Origin: Rhodospirillales bacterium
GTDB taxonomy: Bacteria; Pseudomonadota; Alphaproteobacteria; CACIAM-22H2
Assembly (NCBI GenBank): GCA_947445225.1
Contig: CANFCX010000005.1
Span: 1-51,397 of the forward strand
Reading direction: 5' to 3'
DNA: 51,397 nucleotides
Of this stretch, positions 1,449 to 50,728 are shown one piece after another. Both the position numbers and the translations under genes were made by a program. The first letter of the stretch is position 1, and each line of letters opens with the position of its first letter. Under the pieces are notes generated by a model, which was not told where the DNA came from, made no database searches, and saw only the letters and a program-made list of their open reading frames with translations.

Positions 1449-1904
1449 TTAGGACTTCGTGTTCTTCGCGGCGAGGTGGATCGCGGCGCGGATGCGCTGA
1501 TACGTCCCACAACGGCAGATGTTCGTGATCGTCTTGTCGATGTCGGCATCGGTCGGCTTCGGTTTGCGGGCCAGAAGCGCCGCCGTCGCCATGATCATGC
1601 CCGACTGGCAATAACCGCATTGCGGCACGTCCAGCTCGATCCATGCCTTTTGGACGGGGTGGCTGCTATCGGCCGATAGGCCTTCGATGGTGGTGATCTG
1701 CGCGCCCACGACCGAACCGGCCGGGGTGACGCATGAACGCTTGGCCTGGCCATTCACATGAACCGTGCAGGCGCCGCATTCGGAAATGCCGCAGCCGTAT
1801 TTCGTGCCGGTCATGCCCATGTTGTCGCGCAAGGTCCACAGCAGTGGCGTGTCCGGCGTGACATCGACGTTGTAGTTCTTTCCGTTCACATTCAGCGTAA
1901 TCAT
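1449..1904 (-). CDS. iorA: (2Fe-2S)-binding subunit of isoquinoline 1-oxidoreductase-type enzyme
   Basis: Small electron-transfer subunit (151 aa) of the molybdenum hydroxylase encoded just downstream. The N-terminal plant-ferredoxin-like domain shows the first cluster motif ([17 protein letters not shown], about residues 37-53). The C-terminal helical domain shows the second cluster motif (CGYCQSGM near 96-103 and CRCGTY near 130-135). Eight cysteines for two 2Fe-2S clusters are therefore in place. The length is normal for the family. There is no signal peptide, so it would be carried across the membrane with the Tat-tagged partner, as known for related complexes. An AGGGAGA site seven bases before the ATG supports the start. 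It is the first gene of a two-gene unit. Confidence 0.92.
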
Positions 1905-2105
1905 TAAGCGGTCTCCCTATGTGGTTTTGAGGCCTCCAACTGCCGACGAAATCCGGCTGTACGATCCTTCGCGAAGATAGGCTCCCGCGTCTCGCACTGC
2001 TCGAAGTTTGCCCCGGTTCGTTGCTCGGGACAATCTGATTCTTGCGATAATCACTTAATCTTGCTGACTTTGCCGCTCTTTCGGCTACCTGCGGATGTAA
2101 GTCTT
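1905..2105. other. Intergenic region between glnS and iorA
   Basis: About 200 bases downstream of glnS and upstream of iorA, both on the minus strand. It must hold the iorAB promoter and possibly the glnS terminator, but I see no convincing hairpin with a T-tract, no tRNA and no small coding frame with a ribosome site. Confidence 0.4.
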
Positions 2106-3803
2106 CTAGGCGGCGCCGCCCGGACTTGCCTTGGCCTTGGCCCAGCTATCCCGCAGCCCAACCGTGCGGTTGAAAACCAGCCGTCCGGGCGCGGAATCGG
2201 GGTCGGCGCAGAAATAACCCTGCCGCTCGAATTGCACCGGTTCCCCAATCTTTGCGGCGGCGAGCGCCGGTTCGACTAAGCTGCCGCGCAGGATTTCGAG
2301 GGAGTCCGGGTTGAGGTCGGCGAAGACATCGCCGCCGGCACCTGGGTCTGGTCGCGTAAACAGATGATTATAAATCCGAATCTCGGCCGGCACAGCGTCC
2401 GCGGCGGCGACCCAATGCAGCGTCGCCTGGACCTTTCGCCCATCCGGCGAATCGCCCCCCCGGGTCGCCGGGTCGTAGGTGCAGCGTAGCTCCACGACCT
2501 CGCCGGCTTCGTTTTTCACCGCCGCGCGACAGGTCAGGAAATAGGCATAACGCAACCGAACCTCGCGCCCCGGCGACAGGCGATAGAATTTCTTTGGTGC
2601 GTTTTCCATGAAATCGTCGCGCTCGACATAGATTTCGCGACCGAAACGGACGGGCCGCTTCCCGGCACCCGGATCCTCCGGATTGTTGTGCGCCTCAAGC
2701 GTCTCGACGCTGTCGGCGGGATAATTCTCGATGACCACTTTAAGCGGGCGCAGGATGGCCATGCGGCGCGGCGCGGTCTTGTTCAAAAGCTCGCGGATCG
2801 CGTGTTCGAACATCCCGACATCAACGACGCTGTTGGCCTTGGCCACGCCGATGCGCCGAACAAAATCGCGAATGGCGGCGGGCGGCACGCCGCGCCGGCG
2901 ATGCCCGGCCAGGGTCTGCATCCGCGGGTCGTCCCAACCCTTCACCGCGCCCCGCCGCACCAATTCGGTCAGGAAACGTTTGGACAGAACGGTGAAGCCG
3001 AGATTGAGTCGGGCGAATTCATACTGCCGCGGCCGCGACGGAACCGGCAAATTGTCGAGAAACCAGTCGTAGAGCGGCCGGTGATCGGCGAATTCCAGGG
3101 TGCAGATCGAATGCGTAATGCCCTCAATGGCGTCGGACTGACCGTGAGCGAAATCATAGGTGGGATAAATGCACCAGGCCTTGCCCGTGCGTGGGTGTGG
3201 GGCATGAAGGATGCGGTAGAGCACGGGATCGCGGAGATTGACGTTTCCAGACGCCATGTCGATCTTGGCCCGCAAGACGCGGGCGCCGTCGGGAAATTCG
3301 CCCGCCCGCATGCGGCGAAAAAGATCGAGATTCTCCGCAATGCCGCGCTCGCGAAAGGGACTGTTTTTCCCCGGTTCGGTCAAGGTACCGCGCAGCGCGC
3401 GTATTTCGTCGGCCGATGAATCGTCGACATAGGCCTTGCCGGCCTCGATCAACAGCTCGGCCCAACCAAAGAGCCGGTCGAAATAGTCCGAGGCGTGGTG
3501 TAGATGCGGACCCCAATCGAAACCGAGCCAGCGCACGTCGCGTTCGATCGCGTCGATGAATTCCTGGTCTTCCTTGGTGGGGTTGGTGTCGTCGAAGCGC
3601 AGATGGCACTGGCCGCCGAATTCCTGGGCCACGCCGAAATTCAGGCAGATGGATTTGGCGTGTCCGATGTGGAGGTAACCGTTGGGCTCCGGCGGAAACC
3701 GCGTCACCACCTTGGCGTGGCGCTTGGCCTCGAGATCGGCGCGAATGATGTCGCGGACAAAATCGCCGGCCGGCTCGGGTGAAGCTGTTTCGGTGGCGGT
3801 CAT
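2106..3803 (-). CDS. glnS: Glutamine--tRNA ligase
   Basis: Class I aminoacyl-tRNA synthetase (565 aa) that charges tRNA-Gln with glutamine in the cytoplasm. The HIGH signature is in [15 protein letters not shown] (about residues 37-51), and the KMSKS loop appears as VLSKR (about 272-276), the usual GlnRS form. The catalytic domain is followed by the C-terminal beta-barrel anticodon-binding region. The length fits bacterial GlnRS. Many alphaproteobacteria make Gln-tRNA indirectly through GatCAB, so a direct enzyme is of some interest. It sits 39 nt downstream of gapR on the same strand. The ATG at 3803 gives the expected short N-terminal tail before the catalytic fold. Confidence 0.95.
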
Positions 3804-28698: not shown

Positions 28699-29697
28699 TT
28701 AGGGGCGAAGCAACCCGAGGATAGTGTGGATTTCCGACAAATGATGACGCGAAATCTCGCCGGCGCGTTCGGCGCCGCGCCGCAAGACCGCATCGACATA
28801 AGCCGGCTCGCGCATCAGGCGTTTCATTTCCGCGCCGATCGGGCCCAGTACCGAAACCGCGAGGTCCACAAGCTCGGCCTTGAAGGCGGAGAACGCGGCC
28901 CCCGCGAATCGGATCACGGCGGCCTCCTGCGCGATACCCGCCAGCGCCGCGTAAATGCCGAGTAGGTTCGCGGCATCGGGGCGCGCCTCAAGACCCGCCA
29001 AGGATTCCGGCAACGGCTCGGTGTCGGTCTTGGCCTTCTTGATCTTTTGGGCGACCGTGTCGGCGTCGTCGGTCATGTTGATGCGCGAATAGTCCGAGAG
29101 GTCGGATTTGCTCATCTTCTTGGTGCCGTCGCGAAGGCTCATCACCCGGGTGGCCGCGCCGAAGATTTGCGGCTCAGGCAACGGAAAATAATCGACGTTA
29201 AATTGCCGATTAAACGCACCGGCGATGTCGCGCGCCAGCTCCAGATGTTGTTTCTGGTCGTCACCCACGGGCACGTGCGTCGCCTTATAAAGGAGTATGT
29301 CCGCCGCCATCAGCACCGGATAGGCGTAGAGGCCAAGCCCGGCATTGTCCTTTTGTTTGCCGGCCTTTTCCTTGAATTGGGTCATGCGGTTGAGCCAGCC
29401 GAGCGGCGTCAAACAGCTGAGCAGCCAAGCTAGCTCGCTGTGGCCGGCAACCATGCTCTGGTTGAAGATGATGCAACGCTCCGCGTCGATTCCCGACGCG
29501 ATATAGGCCGCCGTGACCTCGCGGGTCTGCGCGCGCAGCGTCGCCGGATCCTGCGGCGTGGTCAGCGCGTGCAGATCGACGATGCAAAAGATGCAGTCGA
29601 AATCCGCTTGCAACTGCACCCAGTTGCGGATCGCGCCGAGATAGTTGCCGAGGTGCAGATTACCGGTGGGCTGCACGCCCGAGAAGATTCGCTTCAT
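28699..29697 (-). CDS. trpS: Tryptophan--tRNA ligase
   Basis: Class I aminoacyl-tRNA synthetase (332 aa) charging tRNA-Trp. HIGH is in the form [12 protein letters not shown] (about residues 11-22), and KMSKS is exact in [10 protein letters not shown] (about 197-206). [17 protein letters not shown] is the typical binding block. The length is normal for bacterial TrpRS. It lies 57 nt after murJ on the minus strand, a conserved alphaproteobacterial arrangement. Confidence 0.97.
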
Positions 29698-29754
29698 CGC
29701 CCGTCCGATCGTTCCGCGACAAGCGGCGAGTTATCGCGCCTCGCCGCGAGGCGG

Positions 29755-31317
29755 TCAATCGGCTTGGTCCGAGGGCCCCGGCGCGCGGCCGAGTTGCCGC
29801 CGTACCTCGCGCCAATCCGCCGCGCCGGCAAGCTGCGCCGCCCCGGCGAAAATCGCGACGCCACCCAAGACAAGCAACGCCAGACCGAAGGCGCGCGCGG
29901 GCAGCGATCCCGCCAGCAGGGGCGCCAGCACCGCCAAACCAATGACCAAGCCGCCGGCCATCGCCGCGGTGGCCAGCGCCATGCGGGGAAGGCGCCGCAA
30001 GAGCCGGGCGTCGAGCACCAGATGATTGCGTCGGCGGAGGGCCATGAAAAGCAACACCACATTGAGCCAGGCGGAGGCCGCCGTGGCCGCGGCGATACCG
30101 ACATACGCGAAGCGTGTCATCAGGGCGACCGAGATCGCGACATTGGCGGTTAGGCAAAGGATTCCGATCTTGACCGGCGTGGCGGTGTTTTCGCGGGCGA
30201 AGAATCCCGGCGTCAGCGCCCGGATCAGCACATACGCCGGCAACCCGCAGGCATAAGCGGCGAGTGCCGCGGCCGTGGCGGCGGCGGCATCGGCGCCAAA
30301 CGCCCCCCGCTGGAACAGCGTCGACATGATCGGCCCGGCCAGCATGATCAGCGCCGCGGCCGCCGGCAGGGCCAACACCAGGGCAATTTCGATGGCGCGA
30401 TTCTGGCTGTTGGCGGCGGCGTCGATCTCGCCATTCCGCAATTGGCGCGACAACAGGGGCAACAGCGCCGTGCCCACGGCGATACCAACCACGCCCAGCG
30501 GCAACTGGTTCACACGGTCGGCGTAATACAGAAACGAGATCGAGCCGGTCGGCAGCAGCGAGGCGAGCATGACGTTCACCACCACGCCGATCTGCGTGGC
30601 GCCGGCACCCAACGCCACCGGCATCATCAGACCCAACAGACGCCGCACGTCCTTGGACGGCCGGGGCACCGTCAGCCGCAGGCGCAGCCCGGCGTTGTGG
30701 CAGGACAAAGCGAGCCAGGAGAATTGCAGGCCGCCGGCCACGGTCACACCCCAGGCCAGCGCGTGGGCCGGCGTCTCCAGGATTTTCCCGAGCCCCAGCA
30801 ACGCCCCGATCATCGCGATATTGAGCAGGATCGGCGTGCCCGCCGCCGCGGCGAAACGTCCAGAGGCATTCAACGTCGCGCTGAACAGTGTCGCCATGGA
30901 CACGAAGAGAAGATAGGGGAAGGTCAGGCGCATCAGCTCGACGGCCAAGGCCTCGATCGCCCCATCGAAGCCCGGCGCCATGACCGCGACCACCCAGGGC
31001 ATGGCGATTTCGGCGAGTACCAGCACGACAAATAGAATGAACAGGAGCGCGGCCAAAACTTGCTCGGCGAGTCGAATGGCCGCCTCGTGCCCCTCCCCGG
31101 CCAGGCGCCGGGCATAAAAGGGAATAAAGGCGGCGTTGAACGCGCCTTCGGCAAAGAGGCCGCGAAAGACGTTGGGCAGCTTGAAGGCGACGAAAAACGC
31201 ATCGGCGACGGGACCGGCGCCCAATGCCGCGGCGATCAAGATGTCGCGAACGAAGCCGAAGACCCGGCTGACCAAGGTCAAGCCGCCAACCGTGGCGACG
31301 GAACGAAACAAACTCAT
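29755..31317 (-). CDS. murJ: Lipid II flippase MurJ
   Basis: Polytopic MOP-superfamily protein (520 aa), required to flip lipid II across the inner membrane for peptidoglycan synthesis. About 14 hydrophobic helices are visible. Family blocks are SRVFGFVRDILIAAALG (about residues 17-33), VFRGLFAEGAFNAAFIP (about 54-70), and FYARENTATPVKIG near the middle. The frame is open 12 codons further upstream, but MSLFRSVATVGG at 31317 is the family start. It follows the unknown 220-aa gene by 11 nt. Confidence 0.95.
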   Translation of the reverse strand: MSLFRSVATVGGLTLVSRVFGFVRDILIAAALGAGPVADAFFVAFKLPNVFRGLFAEGAFNAAFIPFYARRLAGEGHEAAIRLAEQVLAALLFILFVVLVLAEIAMPWVVAVMAPGFDGAIEALAVELMRLTFPYLLFVSMATLFSATLNASGRFAAAAGTPILLNIAMIGALLGLGKILETPAHALAWGVTVAGGLQFSWLALSCHNAGLRLRLTVPRPSKDVRRLLGLMMPVALGAGATQIGVVVNVMLASLLPTGSISFLYYADRVNQLPLGVVGIAVGTALLPLLSRQLRNGEIDAAANSQNRAIEIALVLALPAAAALIMLAGPIMSTLFQRGAFGADAAAATAAALAAYACGLPAYVLIRALTPGFFARENTATPVKIGILCLTANVAISVALMTRFAYVGIAAATAASAWLNVVLLFMALRRRNHLVLDARLLRRLPRMALATAAMAGGLVIGLAVLAPLLAGSLPARAFGLALLVLGGVAIFAGAAQLAGAADWREVRRQLGRAPGPSDQAD

Positions 31318-31328
31318 CCCGGCGCAAC

Positions 31329-31991
31329 CTAACGCGACGGGCCGGACATGCAATCGCCGTCGCCGAGTAAATCCGTGCGGGCGGTTGGATGAAAGCGGAT
31401 GACGACCCGGCGAGGCAGCGCGGCCGGGTCGATGCGCTGGCGTTCGGTGGATGGCTCCCGGATATCGCGGTCGCGGTTGGGGTCCTCGAACAGCAGGTCG
31501 CGGTTAAGAAAGTCGAGGAAGACGACATGGACCGTCGTCGTCGGGAACACCCACCGCGCCTCCCTTACCTTCACCGCGGCGCCCGGTCGATCCGGCGGGC
31601 ATTGGGCGTAAGGCGGTCCGTATTCCTGTTGAAGGGCACCGAGCACCGCCTCATAGGCGGAAGGCCCGGTCTGGCGCGGCTGGCGCTCCAGCAAGACCTG
31701 CTGCAGCCGCCCCGTCGTTTCACCCATCTGAAAGAAGGCGATGAACCGTTGATCGGCGAAGGAAAGGTTGAGGATCGCCCGCTCGGCATAAGCACCGCCA
31801 TACTGCCAGCGCCCGGGAAGCGCGGCGAGCGCGAATCCGAATGAGGCTTGCAGTTCCGGCTGCGTCATGCCCCAGCGCGCAGCGCGCCAACCGAGGACAT
31901 CGTCGGGCGGCGCGGCTTCGGCGGGTGGCTCGACCAGGCACAGACCGACCAAGCCGATCGCCGCCAGGCGGCGCCGCCAAGCCGGTCTCAT
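31329..31991 (-). CDS. Hypothetical secreted protein between glnD and murJ
   Basis: A 220-residue protein that I do not recognise. It has a short basic N-terminus and signal peptide (RRRLAAIGLVGLCLVEPPAEAA, cleavage near residue 27). A compact domain starts with LGWRAARWGMTQPELQASFG, a pattern seen in small periplasmic or lipid-binding proteins with WGxTxxEv repeats. Later segments include LNLSFADQRFIAFFQMGE and ALQQEYGPPYAQCPPD. Its start overlaps the glnD stop by ATGA and murJ follows by 11 nt, so it is clearly part of the operon. Confidence 0.75.
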   Translation of the reverse strand: MRPAWRRRLAAIGLVGLCLVEPPAEAAPPDDVLGWRAARWGMTQPELQASFGFALAALPGRWQYGGAYAERAILNLSFADQRFIAFFQMGETTGRLQQVLLERQPRQTGPSAYEAVLGALQQEYGPPYAQCPPDRPGAAVKVREARWVFPTTTVHVVFLDFLNRDLLFEDPNRDRDIREPSTERQRIDPAALPRRVVIRFHPTARTDLLGDGDCMSGPSR

Positions 31992-41415: not shown

Positions 41416-41486
41416 TGACGCCTGCCTTCGCCGGTTGTTGAACCGCGGGCTTGACCGCGGATGCCCAAAGCACCTCTTATTCTGAC

Positions 41487-42851
41487 ATGTCCGAGCCGCG
41501 CCTACGTTGGGACCGATTGACGATATTCGCCCTCGCGCTGGTTGCGCCGGCGGCGTTGGTGTTGGCCGTGCTGGCGGCGACCGACGCGCTTTCCGGCTCG
41601 ACCGCGTTTCTCAGCGTGCTGGCGATCGCTTTCGTGGTCGCGCTGATGGTGCGCCCCCATCTCGATGCCATGGAAAGATTGCGACTTTACATGGACAACC
41701 TCGCCGAAGGCGCCAATGAACCGCAGCCGCGGTTTCCTCCGGCCGCCGCCATCGGCGCGTTTTCCGCCGCGTTGGCGCGTCTGGGGCGCGCGCTGGAGCG
41801 GCTGCGGGGGGAGAAAGCCGGCTGGCGCGAAGCCGAATCGGCGGTCATCGACGTGCTGCCCGATCCCTTTTTGTTGATCGACGCCCACGAACGAATCGTT
41901 CAGGCCAATCGCGCCGCCCAGTCCCTGTTCGGGCGAACCATCGTCGGCCGGGACCTTGCCGCTGTTTTGCGCGACCCCGCGATCCTGGCGGCGGTCGAGT
42001 TGGCCATTGCCGGCGGCGATAGCCGGGACATCGATGTCACCCTTACCGGCCAGGTGACGCGTGAATTCAGCGCCCGCGTCGAAGCCTTGCGTCCGGCCGC
42101 GGCGGAAGCCAAGGCCGCGATCTGCCTGCGCGACCTGACCATGATCCGGCGATCCGAACGCATGCGCGCCGATTTCGTGGCCAATGTCAGCCACGAATTG
42201 CGCACGCCGCTTACCTCGCTGCTCGGCTTCACCGAAACGCTGCGCGGTCCGGCCCGCGACGATATCGAGGCGCATGATCGTTTCCTGGCCATCATGCATG
42301 CCCAGGCGAGCCGCATGAGCCGGCTGGTCGCCGATCTGTTGTCCCTGTCGCGCATCGAATTGGAGGAGCACACGCCGGCGGATGGGCTTGTCGATCTGGG
42401 TGCGGCCGTGCGCGGTGTCATCGACTCGCTGGCGCCGCAGGCCGAGGCGAAGGAAATGGCGCTCGACTTCCACGCCGCCGACGGCCTCAAGCCGATCCCC
42501 GGCGATGCCGATCAATTGGCCCAGGTCTTCCAAAACCTGATCGCCAACGCCATTCAGTACGGCCGGCCGGGAACCTCCGTCCGCATCCGCGCCGCACTGA
42601 CGGCGGACGGCCGCAATGTCGCCATAACCGTCGCCGACGAAGGCGACGGCATCGCGCGCGAGCATTTGCCGCGCCTGACCGAGCGTTTCTACCGCGTCGA
42701 CGCCGGCCGGTCGCGGGCCTTGGGCGGAACCGGCCTCGGCCTGGCCATCGTCAAACACATCCTCAACCGCCACCGGGGCAAACTCGAGGTGGACAGCGAG
42801 CCGGGCCGCGGAAGTACCTTTACGGTCAGACTGCCCGCCACGGCGGCGTGA
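41487..42851 (+). CDS. phoR: Phosphate regulon sensor histidine kinase PhoR
   Basis: Membrane sensor kinase (454 aa) that phosphorylates PhoB under phosphate limitation. Two TM helices (about residues 11-31 and 40-55) with almost no periplasmic loop are followed by a linker, a PAS domain (about 118-215), HisKA with phospho-acceptor His236 in NVSHELRTPLT, and HATPase (N box NLIANAIQYG, G boxes DEGDGIA and GGTGLGLAIV). Lack of a periplasmic sensor fits the known model that PhoR reads the Pst transporter through PhoU. A TTG at 41451 could extend it, but the ATG at 41487 is more likely. pstS follows. Confidence 0.93.
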   Translation: MSEPRLRWDRLTIFALALVAPAALVLAVLAATDALSGSTAFLSVLAIAFVVALMVRPHLDAMERLRLYMDNLAEGANEPQPRFPPAAAIGAFSAALARLGRALERLRGEKAGWREAESAVIDVLPDPFLLIDAHERIVQANRAAQSLFGRTIVGRDLAAVLRDPAILAAVELAIAGGDSRDIDVTLTGQVTREFSARVEALRPAAAEAKAAICLRDLTMIRRSERMRADFVANVSHELRTPLTSLLGFTETLRGPARDDIEAHDRFLAIMHAQASRMSRLVADLLSLSRIELEEHTPADGLVDLGAAVRGVIDSLAPQAEAKEMALDFHAADGLKPIPGDADQLAQVFQNLIANAIQYGRPGTSVRIRAALTADGRNVAITVADEGDGIAREHLPRLTERFYRVDAGRSRALGGTGLGLAIVKHILNRHRGKLEVDSEPGRGSTFTVRLPATAA

Positions 42852-42867
42852 GGGGCGTACCAAGTTG

Positions 42868-42896
42868 GCGTCACAAAACTGTCACGGAACCGTAGT
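42868..42896 (+). promoter_or_regulatory. Pho box upstream of pstS
   Basis: Two 7-base direct repeats, GCGTCAC (42868-42874) and CTGTCAC (42879-42885), are separated by AAAA, matching the PhoB box layout (CTGTCAY-N4-CTGTCAY). A weak third repeat CCGTAGT (42890-42896) follows after another four-base spacer. It lies 16 bases after the phoR stop and 115 bases before the pstS start. No confident -10 could be read. Confidence 0.82.
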
Positions 42897-42999
42897 AAAT
42901 CATTTGCGGTGCGATCCTAGCTTGGGGGTTGGAAGCGCCTTGCGGCCCGTCCGGCGCAGCCGGCGCGTCCTCACGCCCTCAACAGATCGGAGAGTTGTA

Positions 43000-43980
43000 A
43001 TGAACCGCAAATCCGCATTGGCCGCGTTTGCCGTGGTGCTGACGGCGCCCTTCGCCGTCGCCGCGCAAACCGTCAACCTCGACCCGGCTCTGCCCGACTA
43101 CAAACAAGTCAGCGGCGTGTCCGGCAGCATCAAGTCGATCGGCTCCGACACGCTCAACAACTTGATGACGTTGTGGGCGGAAGGCTTCAAGGCCATGTAC
43201 CCCAACGTCAAGATCGAGATCGAAGGCAAGGGATCGGGAACCGCGCCGCCGGCCCTGGTTGCCGGCACCGCCCAATTCGGTCCGATGTCGCGTCCGATGC
43301 GCGCCACCGAAGCCGACGAATTCGAGAAGAAATTCGGCTACAAGCCCGTGGCCATGCGCACCGCCGTCGATGCGCTGGCGGTGTTCGTCCACAAGGACAA
43401 CCCGATCGCCTGCCTGTCCCTGCAACAGGTCGATGCGATCTTCTCCAAGACCCGCAAAAGCGGCCTCGACAAGGACATCAAGACCTGGGGCGATATCGGC
43501 ATGACCGGCGAATGGGCCGCCCGGCCGATGTCGCTGTATGGCCGCAATTCCGCGTCCGGCACCTATGGCTATTTCAAGGAAGAAGCGATGGCCAATGGCG
43601 ACTTCAAGGACAGCGTGAAGGAACAGCCCGGCTCCTCGGCCGTGGTCCAGGGCATCGCTTCGGACAAATTCGCCATCGGTTATTCCGGCATCGGCTACAA
43701 GACCGCCGACGTCCGCGCCGTGGCGATTTCCCGCAAGACCGGCGACAAATGCATCGAGGCCAACGCCGACAACGCCTATAGCGGCGATTACGCGATCGCG
43801 CGTTTCCTCTATGTCTATTTCAACAAGAACCCGAACCAGCCGCTCGACCCGGCCCGCGCCGAGTTCATCAAGTTCGTGTTGTCCAAGCAAGGGCAGCAGG
43901 GCGTGATCAAGGACGGGTACTTTCCGGTCACCGCGCCTCTGGTGATGAACGATCTCAAGATACTTGGTTTGATGATGTAA
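43000..43980 (+). CDS. pstS: Phosphate ABC transporter substrate-binding protein PstS
   Basis: Periplasmic phosphate-binding protein (326 aa). A signal peptide (KSALAAFAVVLTAPFAVAAQ, cleavage near residue 22) precedes the two-lobed domain. Phosphate-binding loops typical of PstS are visible: SIGSDTLNNLM near 45, EGKGSGTAPPALVAGTAQFG near 77, and GRNSASGTYGYFKE near 182. The ATG at 43000 has GGAGAG just upstream; the open frame before it includes the Pho box region and is not coding. A strong hairpin after the stop separates it from pstC. It is the most highly expressed gene of the locus in known systems. Confidence 0.96.
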   Translation: MNRKSALAAFAVVLTAPFAVAAQTVNLDPALPDYKQVSGVSGSIKSIGSDTLNNLMTLWAEGFKAMYPNVKIEIEGKGSGTAPPALVAGTAQFGPMSRPMRATEADEFEKKFGYKPVAMRTAVDALAVFVHKDNPIACLSLQQVDAIFSKTRKSGLDKDIKTWGDIGMTGEWAARPMSLYGRNSASGTYGYFKEEAMANGDFKDSVKEQPGSSAVVQGIASDKFAIGYSGIGYKTADVRAVAISRKTGDKCIEANADNAYSGDYAIARFLYVYFNKNPNQPLDPARAEFIKFVLSKQGQQGVIKDGYFPVTAPLVMNDLKILGLMM

Positions 43981-44052: not shown

Positions 44053-46659
44053 ATGCAAGCACCCGCCACGCCGAAATCCCAGACAGCGCCGATACGGCCA
44101 AAGGCTCGCGTCACGCGGCGCTCGGTATTGATCGCCGACCGCGTCGCCGACTGGACGATTCGGATCGGCGGTCTGGCGATCATCCTCGCCGTGTTCGGTA
44201 TCATGATCTTCCTGCTCCAGGTCGCCATACCTCTGTTTCTCGGCGCCTCCGTCACCGGCCATTTCCAGCGCGACATTGCCAATGGCGCCGGCAATCCACG
44301 TTTCGTCGCGGTCGATGAATACAACACCGTCGGCATCCTGATCGGCGACGATGGCCGCGTCTCGGCCTTTCATCTGCCGACGGGCGCGGCCCTTACCGTG
44401 AACAATCTCGACTTCGGCGGCGGCGTGGCCACGGCGGCGTCGCGCACGCTCGACTGGCGCGACATGGCCTTTGGCTTCGCCGACGGCCATGTGCGCTTCG
44501 CGCGCCTCGACCCGACGGCCGGCGTCATCGCGGGCGATTCCCTACCGCCGGGGCTGACGCGGCTGGCAAACGGAGATTCGACCGACGGCAAGGTGGTCTA
44601 TGCCGCGGCGCCGGGCGGTCAATACCGGCGGATCGGTGTCGGCGTCGCGACCGATGCGGCGCAGCCGATCGCCGAGGGCGCCGCCATCGTGGCGATCGAC
44701 TACCGTGTCGGCGGCACGATCGAACGTCCGAGCCGGGCGTTCGTCACCGTCGATTCCAAGGGCGTCGTGCGGCTGAGCAGCGCCGAAACGCGAATGAACC
44801 TGCTCACCGGCGCGGCGCGCACGACGATAACGACGGCGACCCTGCCGCCCTTGCCCGTGGGAACACAGGTGGCGCGGGTTCTTTTGACCGCGAACGCCGA
44901 TCAGGCCTATGTCGCCGATGCGGGCGGCACCGTCTACCGCTACGACACGCGGAACCTGAACGCGCCGGTGTTGGCGGAGACGGTCGATCTGCTGCCGCGC
45001 GATGCCCGGCTTTCGGCTTTCGGTTTCCTGATCGGCGAGCAGTCGTTGATGGTGGCTGGGACCGACGGCACGGTCGCCGGCTATTTTCGCCTCCAGCGCG
45101 AGAGCGCTTCGACCGGCGACGGCTATAGACTGATCCGGGCCCACGATCTGGAGCCCCATGCCGCCGCCGTCACCGGGTTCGGCGCGAGCCAGCGCGGCAA
45201 GATGTTCGTCACCGGCACGGCCGACGGTCTTTGGATCCGGCACGGCACCAGCGAGCAGACCCTGCTCAAACTGAGCCACGCCGAGAGCGCGGGCGGTCGC
45301 CATGTCCTGCTCAGCCCGCGCGACGACGGTGTCTTTGCCTTCGGCGGCGACGGCAAGGTCGATTTCTGGCGTGTCAGCATCCCGCACCCGGAGACGACGC
45401 TGAAGACGATCTTCGGACAGGTCTGGTACGAAGGCTATTCGGAGCCCGGCTATACATGGCAATCATCCGCCGGCACCGATAGTTTCGAGGCCAAGCTTTC
45501 CCTGATCCCCCTGATCTTCGGCACGATCAAGGGCACGGTTTATGCCCTCTTGTTCGCGGTGCCGGTGGCGCTGTTGGCGGCGATCTATACCTCGGAATTC
45601 CTCAATCGCCGGGCGCGTTCCGTCGTCAAGCCGGCGATGGAAATGATGGCCTCGCTGCCCTCCGTGGTGCTGGGCTTCATCGCCGCGCTGATCCTGGCGC
45701 CAATCGTCGAGACCTGGATCGCGGCGGTGATTCTCGCGGTCGTCGTGGTGCCGCTGTCCCTGCTCGTGGCGGCGCATCTGTGGCAGATTCTGCCCATCGA
45801 CTGGGCGCTGCGGCTGGACGGCGTGCCAAAGCTCCTCATGATATTCGCGACCGTCGCGTTGGGCGTCTATCTCGCCACCCTGCTCGGCCCCGCATTCGAA
45901 TATGTGTTCTTCGCCGGCGACTTCCGGGCGTGGGTGAACGGCAGCACGGGAAGGGCGACGCCGTTCTTGTTCATTCTGCTCTTTCCCGTGTCTTTCCTGG
46001 CCGCGCAATTGGCCGCGGAGCGGCTCGATCTGCCTTGGCTGCGCGCGATCGCCGACCGCACGCGCAAGGATGGGGTGGTGGCCATGCTGCGTTGGCTGGT
46101 TCTGCTGACGGGGTCGGCGGCGATTGCCTATGGCATCGCCGAAATCCTGGCGGCGCTGGGCGCGGATCTGCGCGGCGGTGTTGTCGGCACGTATGTTCAG
46201 CGCAACACCCTGATCGTCGCCTTCGCCATGGGGTTCGCCGTCATCCCGATCATCTACACCATCGCCGAGGACGCGCTGAATTCGGTTCCCGAACATCTGC
46301 GGGCGGCGAGTTTGGCCTGCGGCGGCACACCCTGGCAGACGGCGACGCGCGTGATCCTGCCCACCGCGATGAGTGGCGTGTTCGCCGGTATCATGGTCGG
46401 CATGGGGCGCGCCGTCGGCGAAACCATGATAGTGGTCATGGCGGCGGGTAACACGCCCATCCTCGACTGGAACGTCTTCAACGGGCTGCGCGCCTTGTCC
46501 GCCAACATCGCCGTGGAGCTGCCGGAATCGGTGAAGGACGGCACGCTCTATCGCACGCTGTTCCTCGCCGCGCTGACTTTGTTCGTCATGACCTTCGTCA
46601 TCAACACAGCCGCGGAAATGATTCGCCAGCGCTTCCGCAAGCGCGCCTTTCAGCTCTAA
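44053..46659 (+). CDS. pstC: Phosphate ABC transporter permease PstC, enlarged with a periplasmic beta-propeller-like domain
   Basis: Inner-membrane permease of 868 aa, against about 320 in E. coli PstC. One TM lies at about residues 38-62. The following 400 residues carry seven repeats of the form hydrophobic-(D/G)-G-x-V-aromatic: starting near residues 94, 139, 229, 285, 332, 384 and 427 (examples LIGDDGRVSAF, AGTDGTVAGYF, FGGDGKVDFWR). This looks like a seven- or eight-bladed propeller in the periplasm. The permease core follows from about residue 480, with the EAA loop EHLRAASLACGGTPWQ and GMGRAVGETM. The ribosome site before the ATG is weak. It pairs with an equally enlarged PstA, six bases downstream. 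Confidence 0.92.
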   Translation: MQAPATPKSQTAPIRPKARVTRRSVLIADRVADWTIRIGGLAIILAVFGIMIFLLQVAIPLFLGASVTGHFQRDIANGAGNPRFVAVDEYNTVGILIGDDGRVSAFHLPTGAALTVNNLDFGGGVATAASRTLDWRDMAFGFADGHVRFARLDPTAGVIAGDSLPPGLTRLANGDSTDGKVVYAAAPGGQYRRIGVGVATDAAQPIAEGAAIVAIDYRVGGTIERPSRAFVTVDSKGVVRLSSAETRMNLLTGAARTTITTATLPPLPVGTQVARVLLTANADQAYVADAGGTVYRYDTRNLNAPVLAETVDLLPRDARLSAFGFLIGEQSLMVAGTDGTVAGYFRLQRESASTGDGYRLIRAHDLEPHAAAVTGFGASQRGKMFVTGTADGLWIRHGTSEQTLLKLSHAESAGGRHVLLSPRDDGVFAFGGDGKVDFWRVSIPHPETTLKTIFGQVWYEGYSEPGYTWQSSAGTDSFEAKLSLIPLIFGTIKGTVYALLFAVPVALLAAIYTSEFLNRRARSVVKPAMEMMASLPSVVLGFIAALILAPIVETWIAAVILAVVVVPLSLLVAAHLWQILPIDWALRLDGVPKLLMIFATVALGVYLATLLGPAFEYVFFAGDFRAWVNGSTGRATPFLFILLFPVSFLAAQLAAERLDLPWLRAIADRTRKDGVVAMLRWLVLLTGSAAIAYGIAEILAALGADLRGGVVGTYVQRNTLIVAFAMGFAVIPIIYTIAEDALNSVPEHLRAASLACGGTPWQTATRVILPTAMSGVFAGIMVGMGRAVGETMIVVMAAGNTPILDWNVFNGLRALSANIAVELPESVKDGTLYRTLFLAALTLFVMTFVINTAAEMIRQRFRKRAFQL

Positions 46660-46665
46660 GAGCCG

Positions 46666-48402
46666 ATGTCCATGCCCCCCGATTCCGGCCACACCTTCAC
46701 CACATCCGGCGCGGCGCGAGCCACCAGCCGGCCGACCGATCTTCGGGCGCGCGGCGAGCCCTTTTTGTGGGGGCTGGGCGGAGCGCTCGCTTTCGGCGTG
46801 ATGATGGTCGCGGGTCTGCTGTTGCTGGTCCTGTGGAACGGATTCGCCACCTTCTATCCGCGACCGATCCATGTCGTGACCCTGGTCAATGGCGATGTCA
46901 TCGCCGGCGAGCCCACACGCACCGAAGATTTCCGGCCACCGGCGACCGAAGTCGCCGCCCTCCCGGCGGCGGTACGGGCAGGGATCGAGACAAACCTTGG
47001 CTTCGCCGACCGCACGCTGTACCGCACCGGCAATTTCGATCTCTATGGCGACGATTTTCGTTGGATAACCGACTATGCGGTCGCGCGCGTGGCCACGCCG
47101 CCCGACCTCTATCTATTCGAGCGGCTGGAATGGGGTGCTTTCATCGGCCGCATCAAATCCGTCGACCTGGCGGGCGCCACGTTCTACGCCGGCGGAATTC
47201 CGCTGGATCGCCTGGTGGCCGCTCATGACGAGGCGCGGCGACGCTGGCGGCAGATTCGCGAGATCGAACACGACGAGATCGGCCGCGTTAACCAGCAGAT
47301 CGAGTCCGAGAGACTCGCCTTGCGCAAGGTGGAATTGCGGAGCGGCGGGCCCGCGACCGACTACGCCGACGCGGCACGGCGGACCGACGCCCGCGTCGTT
47401 ACGCTGACCGGCGAATATGAGGGATTGGCGGCACGGGCCGCGGCGTTGAAGGCCGAAAACGCGCGCTACACGATCACGCTCACCGAAATCGGGGGGCGCG
47501 AGAAATCGCAGAACCTTGCCGACATCGTGCGTTTCTATCCGGCCAATGATTTATCGGTATTGGCGAGGCTCGGCGTCTATTTTTCGCGGTGGGGCGAGTT
47601 TCTGACGGCGGAGCCGCGCGAGGCCAATACCGAAGGCGGCGTCCTGCCGGCGATTTTCGGCACCTTCGCCATGACCTTGTTGATGGTCGTGGCGGTGGCG
47701 CCCTTTGGCGTGATGACGGCGCTCTACCTGCGCGAATACGCCCGGCAAGGACGGCTGGTTTCCATCGTCCGCATCTCGGTCAACAACCTCGCGGGCGTTC
47801 CGTCCATCGTGTACGGCGTGTTTGGCCTTGGCTTCTTCGCCTATATCGTCGGCGGCACGATCGACCAGGTCTTTTTTCCCGAACGGCTTCCCAATCCGAC
47901 CTTCGGCACCGGCGGGTTGTTATGGTCGGCCTTGACCTTGGCGTTGCTCACCGTGCCGGTCGTGATCGTCGCCACCGAAGAAGCCTTGGCCGCGGTGCCG
48001 CGTTCGATGCGTGAAGGCTCGCTGGCCTGCGGCGCCTCCAAATGGCAGACCATCCACCGCATCGTGTTGCCGCGGGCCATGCCCGGCATCATGACGGGCT
48101 TGATTCTGGCGATGGCGCGCGGCGCCGGCGAAGTCGCGCCGCTGATGCTGGTTGGGGTCGTCAAATTGGCCCCGGAGCTTCCGATCGACGGCATCTTCCC
48201 GTACATCCATTTCGAACGCAGCTTCATGCACCTGGGTTTCCACATCTATGACGTGGGTTTCCAATCGAGGAATTCCGAGGCCGGAAAGCCGATGGTTTTC
48301 GTGACGACATTGCTTCTGATCGCGCTGGTCGCGTTGATGAACGCGACGGCGATCGTCGTGCGCAACCGGCTCAAACGGAAATTTGTTGGCGGTCAGTTCT
48401 AG
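46666..48402 (+). CDS. pstA: Phosphate ABC transporter permease PstA with DUF3333-type periplasmic extension
   Basis: Inner-membrane permease of 578 aa (E. coli PstA about 296). An N-terminal TM (about residues 34-62, ALAFGVMMVAGLLLLVLWNGF) is followed by a periplasmic region of the DUF3333 type. It contains a long charged coiled coil (about residues 186-275, with DEARRRWRQIREIEHDEI and later LAARAAALKAEN). The permease core begins near residue 325 (LPAIFGTFAMTLLMVVAV) and shows the EAA loop SMREGSLACGASKWQTIH and ARGAGEVAPL. The start overlaps nothing; it lies six bases after pstC. Confidence 0.93.
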   Translation: MSMPPDSGHTFTTSGAARATSRPTDLRARGEPFLWGLGGALAFGVMMVAGLLLLVLWNGFATFYPRPIHVVTLVNGDVIAGEPTRTEDFRPPATEVAALPAAVRAGIETNLGFADRTLYRTGNFDLYGDDFRWITDYAVARVATPPDLYLFERLEWGAFIGRIKSVDLAGATFYAGGIPLDRLVAAHDEARRRWRQIREIEHDEIGRVNQQIESERLALRKVELRSGGPATDYADAARRTDARVVTLTGEYEGLAARAAALKAENARYTITLTEIGGREKSQNLADIVRFYPANDLSVLARLGVYFSRWGEFLTAEPREANTEGGVLPAIFGTFAMTLLMVVAVAPFGVMTALYLREYARQGRLVSIVRISVNNLAGVPSIVYGVFGLGFFAYIVGGTIDQVFFPERLPNPTFGTGGLLWSALTLALLTVPVVIVATEEALAAVPRSMREGSLACGASKWQTIHRIVLPRAMPGIMTGLILAMARGAGEVAPLMLVGVVKLAPELPIDGIFPYIHFERSFMHLGFHIYDVGFQSRNSEAGKPMVFVTTLLLIALVALMNATAIVVRNRLKRKFVGGQF

Positions 48403-48429: not shown

Positions 48430-49254
48430 ATGGCGACCGTTGCGCGCAGCATCCAGCCAGACGAAAGCGGGACCGTGTACCATGTCCGTGCCGGCGCCGA
48501 GGGCACCGTCATCGACGTCGATGGGTTCAACCTGTTCTACGGCAAGAAGCAGGCATTGTTCGACATCACGTTTTCGGTGCCGCGCGGCCTGGTCTGCGCG
48601 CTGATCGGCCCTTCGGGCTGTGGCAAGTCGACGCTGCTGCGTTGTCTCAATCGCATGAACGATCTCATCGACGACGTGACGATAAACGGCGACATGCGCA
48701 TCGAGGGCCACGATCTCTACGGTCCCGGAGTCGACGTCATCGCGCTGCGCAAACGGATGGGCATGGTCTTCCAAAAGCCCAACCCGTTTCCGATGTCGAT
48801 TTTCGAGAACGTGGTTTATCCCCTGCGGATCGATGGCGTGCGCGATCGCAACGTGCTCGAAGAGACCTGCGAACGTGCGTTGAAGGGTGCCGCCCTCTGG
48901 GACGAGGCGAAGGATCGGCTTAAGGAAAGCGCCTTGGGATTGTCGGGCGGTCAGCAACAACGCCTGTGTATCGCCCGCGCCATCGCCGCCGATCCGGAGG
49001 TGCTTTTGATGGACGAGCCCTGTTCGGCGCTCGATCCCATCGCCACCTCGAAAATCGAGGAGCTGATCGACGAACTCAAAGGCCGCTACACCATCATCAT
49101 CGTTACGCACAATATGCAGCAAGCGGCGCGTGTCTCCGACAACACGGCGTTCATGTATCTCGGCCGCCTGATCGAATTCGGCGAGACCGAGATATTGTTC
49201 ACCGCGCCCAAGGTGACCAAGACGCTCGATTACGTCACCGGACGCTTCGGCTGA
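48430..49254 (+). CDS. pstB: Phosphate ABC transporter ATP-binding protein PstB
   Basis: Cytoplasmic ATPase subunit (274 aa) powering phosphate import. Walker [12 protein letters not shown] (about residues 59-69), Q-loop [11 protein letters not shown] (about 114-124), signature LSGGQQQRL (about 174-182), Walker [14 protein letters not shown], and the switch His in VTHNMQQA are all intact. [12 protein letters not shown] is characteristic of PstB. It follows pstA by 27 bases and precedes phoU by 26. Confidence 0.97.
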
Positions 49255-49280: not shown

Positions 49281-50024
49281 ATGAACAGCGACAGCACACA
49301 TACCGTCAAATCCTACGACGAAGACCTGCGCCGCCTGAACAAGACGATCGCGGAGATGGGCGGATTGGCCGAAACCCAACTCGCCGATGCCGTCGACGCA
49401 CTCGTCGGCCGCGACAGCGACAGCGCCGCCGGCGTCATCGAGAGCGACCAGCGCATCGACCAACTCGAACGCGAGGTGGACGCGTCGGTGGTTCGCCTGC
49501 TCGCTTTGCGTCAACCGATGGCGAGCGATCTTCGGTTGATCGTCGCCGCGCTCAAGATCGCCTCCGATATCGAGCGCATCGGCGATTACGCCGCCAACGT
49601 CGCCAAACGGTCCATCGCCTTGAACCAGATGCCGTTGGCCCGCCCCATGAATTCCCTGCCGCGCATGGGCCGCCAGGTCCAGCAAATGATCAAGGACGTG
49701 CTCGACGCCTTCGTCGACAAAGACGCGGCGAAGGCGGAAGCCGTATGGAATCGCGACGAGGAAGTCGACGATACCTACAACAGCCTGTTCCGCGAGCTGT
49801 TGACCTATATGATGGAAGATCCCAGGAACATCAGCGCCTGCACCCATCTTTTGTTCATCGCAAAAAACATCGAGCGCATCGGCGACCACACCACGAACAT
49901 CGCCGAGACCATCCATTTCATGGTCCATGGCAAACCGATCGCCGCGGTCCGGCCCAAGGGCGATTCCACCGCCTTCGCCGTGATCAAGCCCGGCCCCGGT
50001 GAGAAAGGAGCCGCTCCCCAATGA
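49281..50024 (+). CDS. phoU: Phosphate signaling complex protein PhoU
   Basis: Cytoplasmic regulator (247 aa) that links PstB status to PhoR and keeps the regulon off when phosphate is plentiful. Two three-helix PhoU repeats are visible, each with the metal-binding pattern: ASDIERIGDYAANVAKR (about residues 94-110) and AKNIERIGDHTTNIAE (about 194-209). The frame is open upstream within pstB, but the ATG at 49281 has AAAGGA before it and starts the family-like N-terminus. The phoB start overlaps its stop by ATGA. Confidence 0.96.
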   Translation: MNSDSTHTVKSYDEDLRRLNKTIAEMGGLAETQLADAVDALVGRDSDSAAGVIESDQRIDQLEREVDASVVRLLALRQPMASDLRLIVAALKIASDIERIGDYAANVAKRSIALNQMPLARPMNSLPRMGRQVQQMIKDVLDAFVDKDAAKAEAVWNRDEEVDDTYNSLFRELLTYMMEDPRNISACTHLLFIAKNIERIGDHTTNIAETIHFMVHGKPIAAVRPKGDSTAFAVIKPGPGEKGAAPQ

Positions 50025-50728
50025 AACAGCGCATCCTGGTCGTCGAGGACGAAGACGCCGTCGTTGAATTGCTGCGTTACAATCTGGAAAAGGCCGGCTT
50101 CGACGTGGCCGCCGCCGGAGACGGCGAAGAGGCGTTGAGCGCGGTGGCCGACGGTGTGCCCGATCTTCTCATCCTCGACTGGATGTTGCCGCATGTATCG
50201 GGCATCGAGGTCTGCCGGCAGATTCGGCGCAAACCCGAAACCCGAGACATTCCGGTATTGATGTTGACCGCCCGTGGCTCGGAGGCCGACCGCGTCCGCG
50301 GCCTTGATTGCGGCGCCGACGATTACGTCGCCAAGCCGTTCTCCACCAACGAGCTGATGGCGCGGGTGCGGGCCCTGCTGCGCCGGGCCAAACCGGCCGA
50401 GATCGCCGGCAAATTGACGTTCGGCGGCGTCGAGATGGACCTCGGTTCACATCGCGTCAGCCGCGCCGGCCGTTCGATCCATCTCGGACCGACGGAGTTC
50501 CGCCTGCTCAAACATCTAATGGAGCGGCCCGGCCGCGTCTTCAGCCGCGAGCAGCTTCTGGACTCCGTCTGGGGCCGCGACATCTATGTCGAGCCGCGCA
50601 CCGTTGATGTCCACGTTCGCCGTCTGCGCAAGGCGTTGAACGGCCCCGACGATCTCGACATCATCCGCACCGTCCGCGCCGCCGGCTACAGCCTCGACGA
50701 GACCACCGAAGAAGAAAAGTCGGCCTAA
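50021..50728 (+). CDS. phoB: Phosphate regulon response regulator PhoB
   Basis: OmpR/PhoB-type response regulator (235 aa). The receiver domain has the acid pocket Glu9-Asp10-Glu11, phospho-acceptor Asp53 in LILDWMLPH, Thr83 and Lys105 in VAKPF. The winged-helix DNA-binding domain (about residues 135-230) shows LGPTEFRLLKHLMERPGRVFSR and VDVHVRRLRKAL. It should bind the Pho box upstream of pstS. Translation is coupled to phoU. It converges with the methyltransferase gene, four bases apart. Confidence 0.96.
   Translation: MKQRILVVEDEDAVVELLRYNLEKAGFDVAAAGDGEEALSAVADGVPDLLILDWMLPHVSGIEVCRQIRRKPETRDIPVLMLTARGSEADRVRGLDCGADDYVAKPFSTNELMARVRALLRRAKPAEIAGKLTFGGVEMDLGSHRVSRAGRSIHLGPTEFRLLKHLMERPGRVFSREQLLDSVWGRDIYVEPRTVDVHVRRLRKALNGPDDLDIIRTVRAAGYSLDETTEEEKSA

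Follow-up and report, generated by a model that had tools for sequence, protein, structure and literature searches.

Why do the two permease genes of a Pst operon in an alphaproteobacterium encode proteins far longer than those of Escherichia coli, and what might the additional parts do? The window, a 51,397-nucleotide stretch of DNA from a Rhodospirillales bacterium, carries on its plus strand, in this order, phoR, pstS, pstC, pstA, pstB, phoU and phoB. Models of phosphate import and Pho regulation rest on the E. coli transporter, whose PstC and PstA have 319 and 296 aa and lack both the periplasmic modules and the extra core helices listed here. The coordinates and lengths that a sequence-only reading had given for the two permeases (the pstC and pstA lines below) are exact.

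41451..42851, plus strand: phoR, with PAS, HisKA and HATPase domains and membrane segments within residues 20-74
42865..43980, plus strand: pstS, TIGR02136 (PstS_2) subfamily (260.8 bits, cut-off 206.6)
44053..46659, plus strand: pstC, propeller-type phosphate permease, 868 aa (ORF, TIGR02138, AF2 model)
44119..44238, plus strand: PstC TM1, residues 23-62 (hydropathy; AF2 helix 23-62)
44248..45378, plus strand: predicted periplasmic seven-bladed WD40-type beta-propeller of PstC, residues 66-442 (AF2, Foldseek, VIA, weak WD40 Pfam matches across family members)
44515..44610, plus strand: insertion in blade 2, residues about 155-186 (gapped in gammaproteobacterial relatives; strand order)
45379..45504, plus strand: propeller-permease junction (WYEGY...WQSS), residues 443-484 (conservation)
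45505..46656, plus strand: PstC permease core, residues 485-868 (Pfam BPD_transp_1; hhalign to ordinary alphaproteobacterial PstC)
45949..46188, plus strand: core insertion of about 80 aa (about 633-712) with two extra helices, 636-657 and 673-701 (alignment, AF2)
46666..48402, plus strand: pstA, 578 aa (ORF, TIGR00974, AF2 model)
46861..47187, plus strand: PstA beta-domain, first part, residues 66-174 (AF2; motifs kept where the hairpin is lost)
47203..47463, plus strand: PstA helical hairpin, residues 180-266 (AF2, pLDDT 92-98)
47467..47553, plus strand: PstA beta-domain, second part, residues 268-296 (AF2)
48430..49254, plus strand: pstB (TIGR00972, 386 bits, above cut-off; PstB tree)
49281..50024, plus strand: phoU, alphaproteobacterial lineage (TIGR02135, 258 bits; PhoU tree)
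50021..50728, plus strand: phoB, alphaproteobacterial lineage (TIGR02154, 341 bits; PhoB tree)

PstA scores above the equivalog cut-off of TIGR00974 (241.7 bits against 193.45), and the PstB and phosphate-binding protein of the same operon are both above their NCBIfam cut-offs. PstC falls just below that of TIGR02138 (194.5 bits; cut-off 196.45), with the match split in two, and the identity of its core and the gene order agree with a PstSCAB phosphate importer. E. coli PstSCAB is the best Foldseek match of the PstA model and the best sequence match of the PstC core, and the permease core of E. coli PstC and PstA (cryo-EM structures 9k3s, 9k3x and 9k3y) is the same as that in the window. Pfam finds in PstC and PstA the permease core alone (BPD_transp_1 in PstC), save that PstC also matches WD40_Prp19 weakly. 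By its genes, the phosphate importer of the window is a PstSCAB of a distinct subtype, called propeller-type Pst below. The E. coli Pho-box consensus is absent from the window at up to three mismatches, a result that is uninformative for alphaproteobacteria.

Repeats resembling the blades of a beta-propeller had been noticed in PstC from its letters. They are well above chance (residues 63-480 hold 6 matches, and 2000 shuffles gave 0.35 on average and 4 at most), and structure prediction, the check proposed for the propeller, likewise returned this fold. In the AF2 model (96-row alignment, mean pLDDT 87.6, pTM 0.79) residues 66-442 form almost only strands, mostly with a pLDDT of 90-97, and strand assignment on the predicted model divides 28 strands among seven blades of four, the last of which, blade 7, is probably closed by the N-terminal strand. 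The best PDB matches of the model are WD40 propellers (Foldseek, VIA; Z up to 25.9, residues 63-445). AIP1, Ski8, Sec12 and eIF3i share the fold of the module (VIA Z 24-26 over 63-445), whereas the PstC propeller is about 10-13% identical to them, periplasmic and fused into an ABC permease. It lies below the curated Pfam level for WD40 domains (WD40_Prp19, 23.4 bits; cut-off 320), and several WD40-type Pfam families match relatives of PstC weakly. The module is predicted with high confidence to be a seven-bladed WD40-type propeller. An eighth blade, thought to hide in a 90-residue gap between repeats, is ruled out by the alignment to gammaproteobacterial relatives and the AF2 strand order; the gap is the blade 2 insertion, a stretch gapped in those relatives.

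Conservation in PstC is highest at the junction (mean 0.61), followed by the permease core (0.56) and the propeller (0.30), which has no strongly conserved loop face and in which blades 5-6 stand out as more conserved. Such a pattern fits a scaffold that has a contact patch close to the junction and blades 5-6 better than it fits a ligand pocket or a ligand-binding sensor. The core insertion with its two extra helices, which the sequence-only reading had missed, occurs only in alpha-type PstC, where the stretch is 88-99 residues long as against 9-14 in gammaproteobacterial members.

The module of PstA, like that of PstC, sits between TM1 and the permease core (AF2, hydropathy). The coiled coil proposed there holds as an antiparallel helical hairpin in the AF2 model (94 rows, pLDDT 88.0, pTM 0.83), with helices 180-226 and 231-266 at a pLDDT of 92-98, but the beta-domain that hosts it had been overlooked. 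Mean conservation is 0.64 in the core, 0.36 in the beta-domain and 0.32 in the hairpin, and helix 1 of the hairpin has a conserved middle stretch (N209, E213, R216, L217, R220). A Pfam search of the window's PstA module gave no match, a sequence search for solved relatives of the module gave chance coiled-coil matches only, and the structural matches of the PstA model are filled by the permease core. The hairpin region is enlarged in two loci, to 156 residues in L138 and 272 in L145 (Planctomycetaceae MAG) as against about 90; the reading frame of L145 may be disturbed.

The alphaproteobacterial Pst type with DUF3708 in PstC and DUF3333 in PstA is also enlarged N-terminal to the core, has the operon order of the window and occurs in relatives of the window genome. 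The window's PstC and PstA do not match PF12501 (DUF3708) or PF11812 (DUF3333), both of which are matched by a relative with an ordinary operon used as a positive control, and hhalign aligns cores only (in PstC, core and junction). The profile comparison gives no support to the modules being homologous to DUF3708 or DUF3333, and the PstA module is not DUF3333.

Propeller-type Pst is widespread. A PstC-module profile search of 398 Pseudomonadota genomes matched 58, of which 55 are propeller-positive once three weak matches without a Pst operon (G124, G156, G358) are dropped; all but the window's own genome lie outside its class. A junction-motif scan of 84,980 species genomes gave at least 578 confirmed loci, and the best 80 of these carry names from about a dozen phyla, some MAG labels among which may be wrong: Pseudomonadota, Thermodesulfobacteriota, Nitrospinota, Nitrospirota, Planctomycetota, Verrucomicrobiota, Ignavibacteriota, KSB1, Acidobacteriota, Rokubacteria, Methylomirabilota and Latescibacteria. 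The nearest named relative among the best 80 is the isolate Baikal-deep-G46, a Rhodospirillaceae MAG with 95% identity across the module. A literature search for a propeller on PstC, largely of sources other than subscription journals, found nothing relevant; the type is undescribed in the literature searched, and its modules are not modelled by Pfam.

The two modules are normally inherited together. Each of the 55 propeller-positive genomes has the PstA module as well. A long PstC lies next to a long PstA in 33 of 33 fetched loci and in 70 of 70 named loci with enough flanking sequence, one genome being counted in both sets and seven further loci being left out as frame-shifted or at the edge of a contig or fetched stretch. 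Outside a single gammaproteobacterial family (f69), the survey of co-occurrence that had been proposed finds the pair in about 100 of 100 testable operons, but within that family the two are separable. Nine genomes carry the PstA module without a propeller match; their PstC is divergent and of full length in four (712-749 aa), has lost the propeller in four (371-383 aa) and keeps about half of it in one.

In this family 37 operons have a propeller stretch of 317-377 residues, 12 have one of 156-186 and 26 one of 0-20; the erosion series runs through about 365, 320, 160 and 0 residues (loci L205-L209, L227-L279). Three genomes (G445, G478, G489) hold a full-propeller and a half-propeller operon together. 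The PstA segment, that is the stretch between TM1 and the core, was measured in 24 propeller-less operons of the family and is 207-220 residues long in 13 and 163-194 in 11; nine genomes of one genus keep a propeller of about 318 residues with a PstA segment of 155 (window, 255). The hairpin thus varies by itself: it is missing in some genomes that have most of the propeller and present in others that have none. Loss of the whole PstA module was considered and rejected: the hairpin alone is lost, and the beta-domain motifs are present in every propeller-type PstA read through. Strict pairing of propeller and hairpin is ruled out by their independent losses in the family, which leaves a superstructure that needs both parts without support. 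The joint periplasmic superstructure proposed earlier is borne out in part, the modules being real and normally inherited together. On comparison of these genes, the propeller can be separated from the hairpin, and what stays constant is the beta-domain of PstA. Since operons without propeller or hairpin persist, the modules are not essential for keeping a Pst operon.

How, then, might the modules act? Our preferred though tentative reading, put forward by analogy and at somewhat less than an even chance, is that they form a scaffold that docks PstS as MalF-P2 does for the maltose-binding protein. MalF-P2 too is periplasmic, is inserted in the permease of a type I importer and lies beside the binding protein; its position in the protein differs from that of the PstC and PstA modules, and the likeness is one of working only, with no homology claimed. 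PMC8134467, with its reference 30, provides MalF-P2 as a precedent for a periplasmic domain docking a binding protein. On this model, the modules on the periplasmic mouth would capture and orient PstS, the gate would be coupled to the propeller by way of the junction, the PstA beta-domain would be indispensable with propeller and hairpin as auxiliaries that can be lost, and Pho signalling would proceed as usual via PstB, PhoU and PhoR in the cytoplasm.

Both modules follow TM1 and precede the core, and so lie on the face of the membrane at which PstS works; this counts for docking. Among seven PstS tested, those of four propeller-bearing operons are above the TIGR02136 cut-off and those of two ordinary alphaproteobacterial operons and one propeller-less operon below it, so that the subfamily score follows propeller presence, which also counts for docking but is suggestive only. 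In the eroding family the PstS score drops as the propeller shortens, with a rho of 0.54 in the divergent lineage, uncorrected for relatedness, and of 0.40 after division by the core score. Three things count against docking: propeller length in that family follows core conservation roughly as closely as it follows PstS; operons persist without propeller or hairpin; and a simple coevolution test of the PstC and PstA modules, although dominated by relatedness, gave no propeller-hairpin or propeller-beta signal.

The repeated erosion within the family, together with the weak conservation of the propeller, would also be expected if the modules were mainly structural, stabilising PstC and PstA, with their extra transmembrane helices, or assisting their assembly without a specific partner. 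This is unlikely, as about 100 operons from a dozen phyla have retained the modules whole and the junction is better conserved than the permease core. Rather unlikely too is that they tether the importer to an envelope partner such as the cell wall, an outer-membrane phosphate porin or alkaline phosphatase, raising the local phosphate supply: elements such as a propeller, or a hairpin borne by a beta-domain, typically make protein contacts, and the conserved residues of hairpin helix 1 point the same way, but the phyla that have this Pst differ in their envelopes, which speaks against one common envelope partner.

The history of the operon bears on both docking and signalling. In trees built from samples, the window PstB falls in a supported clade of propeller-type PstB only, whereas PhoU and PhoB of propeller-type alphaproteobacteria branch among alphaproteobacteria with ordinary Pst. 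The PstC and PstA cores score about 220-540 bits against propeller-type operons and about 100-125 against ordinary alphaproteobacterial ones, and the best bit scores of PhoU, PhoB and PhoR are against alphaproteobacteria. Across phyla the pstSCAB transport genes travel together, whereas phoU and phoB go with the lineage of the host, a pattern that points to a role in transport. By its gene trees and scores, the operon is chimeric, a pstSCAB cassette joined in Alphaproteobacteria to native phoU and phoB. A contig labelled Candidatus Marinimicrobia (L102) has phoU and phoB that group with alphaproteobacterial ones and is probably mislabelled or contaminated.

It had been argued that PhoR, which has membrane segments only within residues 20-74 and so no room for a periplasmic sensor, receives its input from the modules. 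That the modules sense phosphate or the state of the envelope and feed the Pho pathway would fit this, as well as their place in a pho operon and the common use of WD40 propellers as interaction platforms. The argument is weak, however, and we consider this reading improbable. A Pst of the ordinary kind has no modules and signals via PstB and PhoU, and the E. coli-type PhoR also has no periplasmic sensor domain yet works with a Pst without modules. The separate histories of transport cassette and signalling genes, PhoU and PhoB following the host and not the module, argue against modules tailored to one PhoR; operons without propeller still carry phoU, and the propeller lacks a conserved loop face. 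Least probable, and very doubtful, is that the propeller and the PstA beta-domain and hairpin form an extracytoplasmic unit gating import or Pho signalling by PstS occupancy or an envelope partner, though if true such a control unit would be a layer absent from the E. coli paradigm and present in P. aeruginosa and a dozen phyla.

Many gammaproteobacteria, including P. aeruginosa, and many other phyla use a Pst with the two extra periplasmic modules. The PstC and PstA of P. aeruginosa (plasmid record NZ_CP070468.1; WP_003123734.1 and WP_003096667.1) are propeller-type, with a full-length propeller and the PstA module, and 86% identical to a gammaproteobacterial member. They differ from the alpha type in that PstC has neither the blade 2 insertion nor the pair of extra core helices. 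The role of the modules is therefore testable in P. aeruginosa by module deletion, and the natural erosion series shows which parts are removable and suggests clean deletion boundaries. The deposited P. aeruginosa PstC starts at locus position 1768 (677 codons). Its frame is open from 1474 (locus 1474-3801), with an ATG at 1516, about 84 codons upstream of the annotated start, followed by TM1 and first strands conserved across the family. The annotated start probably omits TM1, an error that, if real, would affect constructs built from the annotation. Elsewhere in the window, a 622-aa ORF at 29660-31528 on the minus strand has no Pfam match and may be a shadow ORF.
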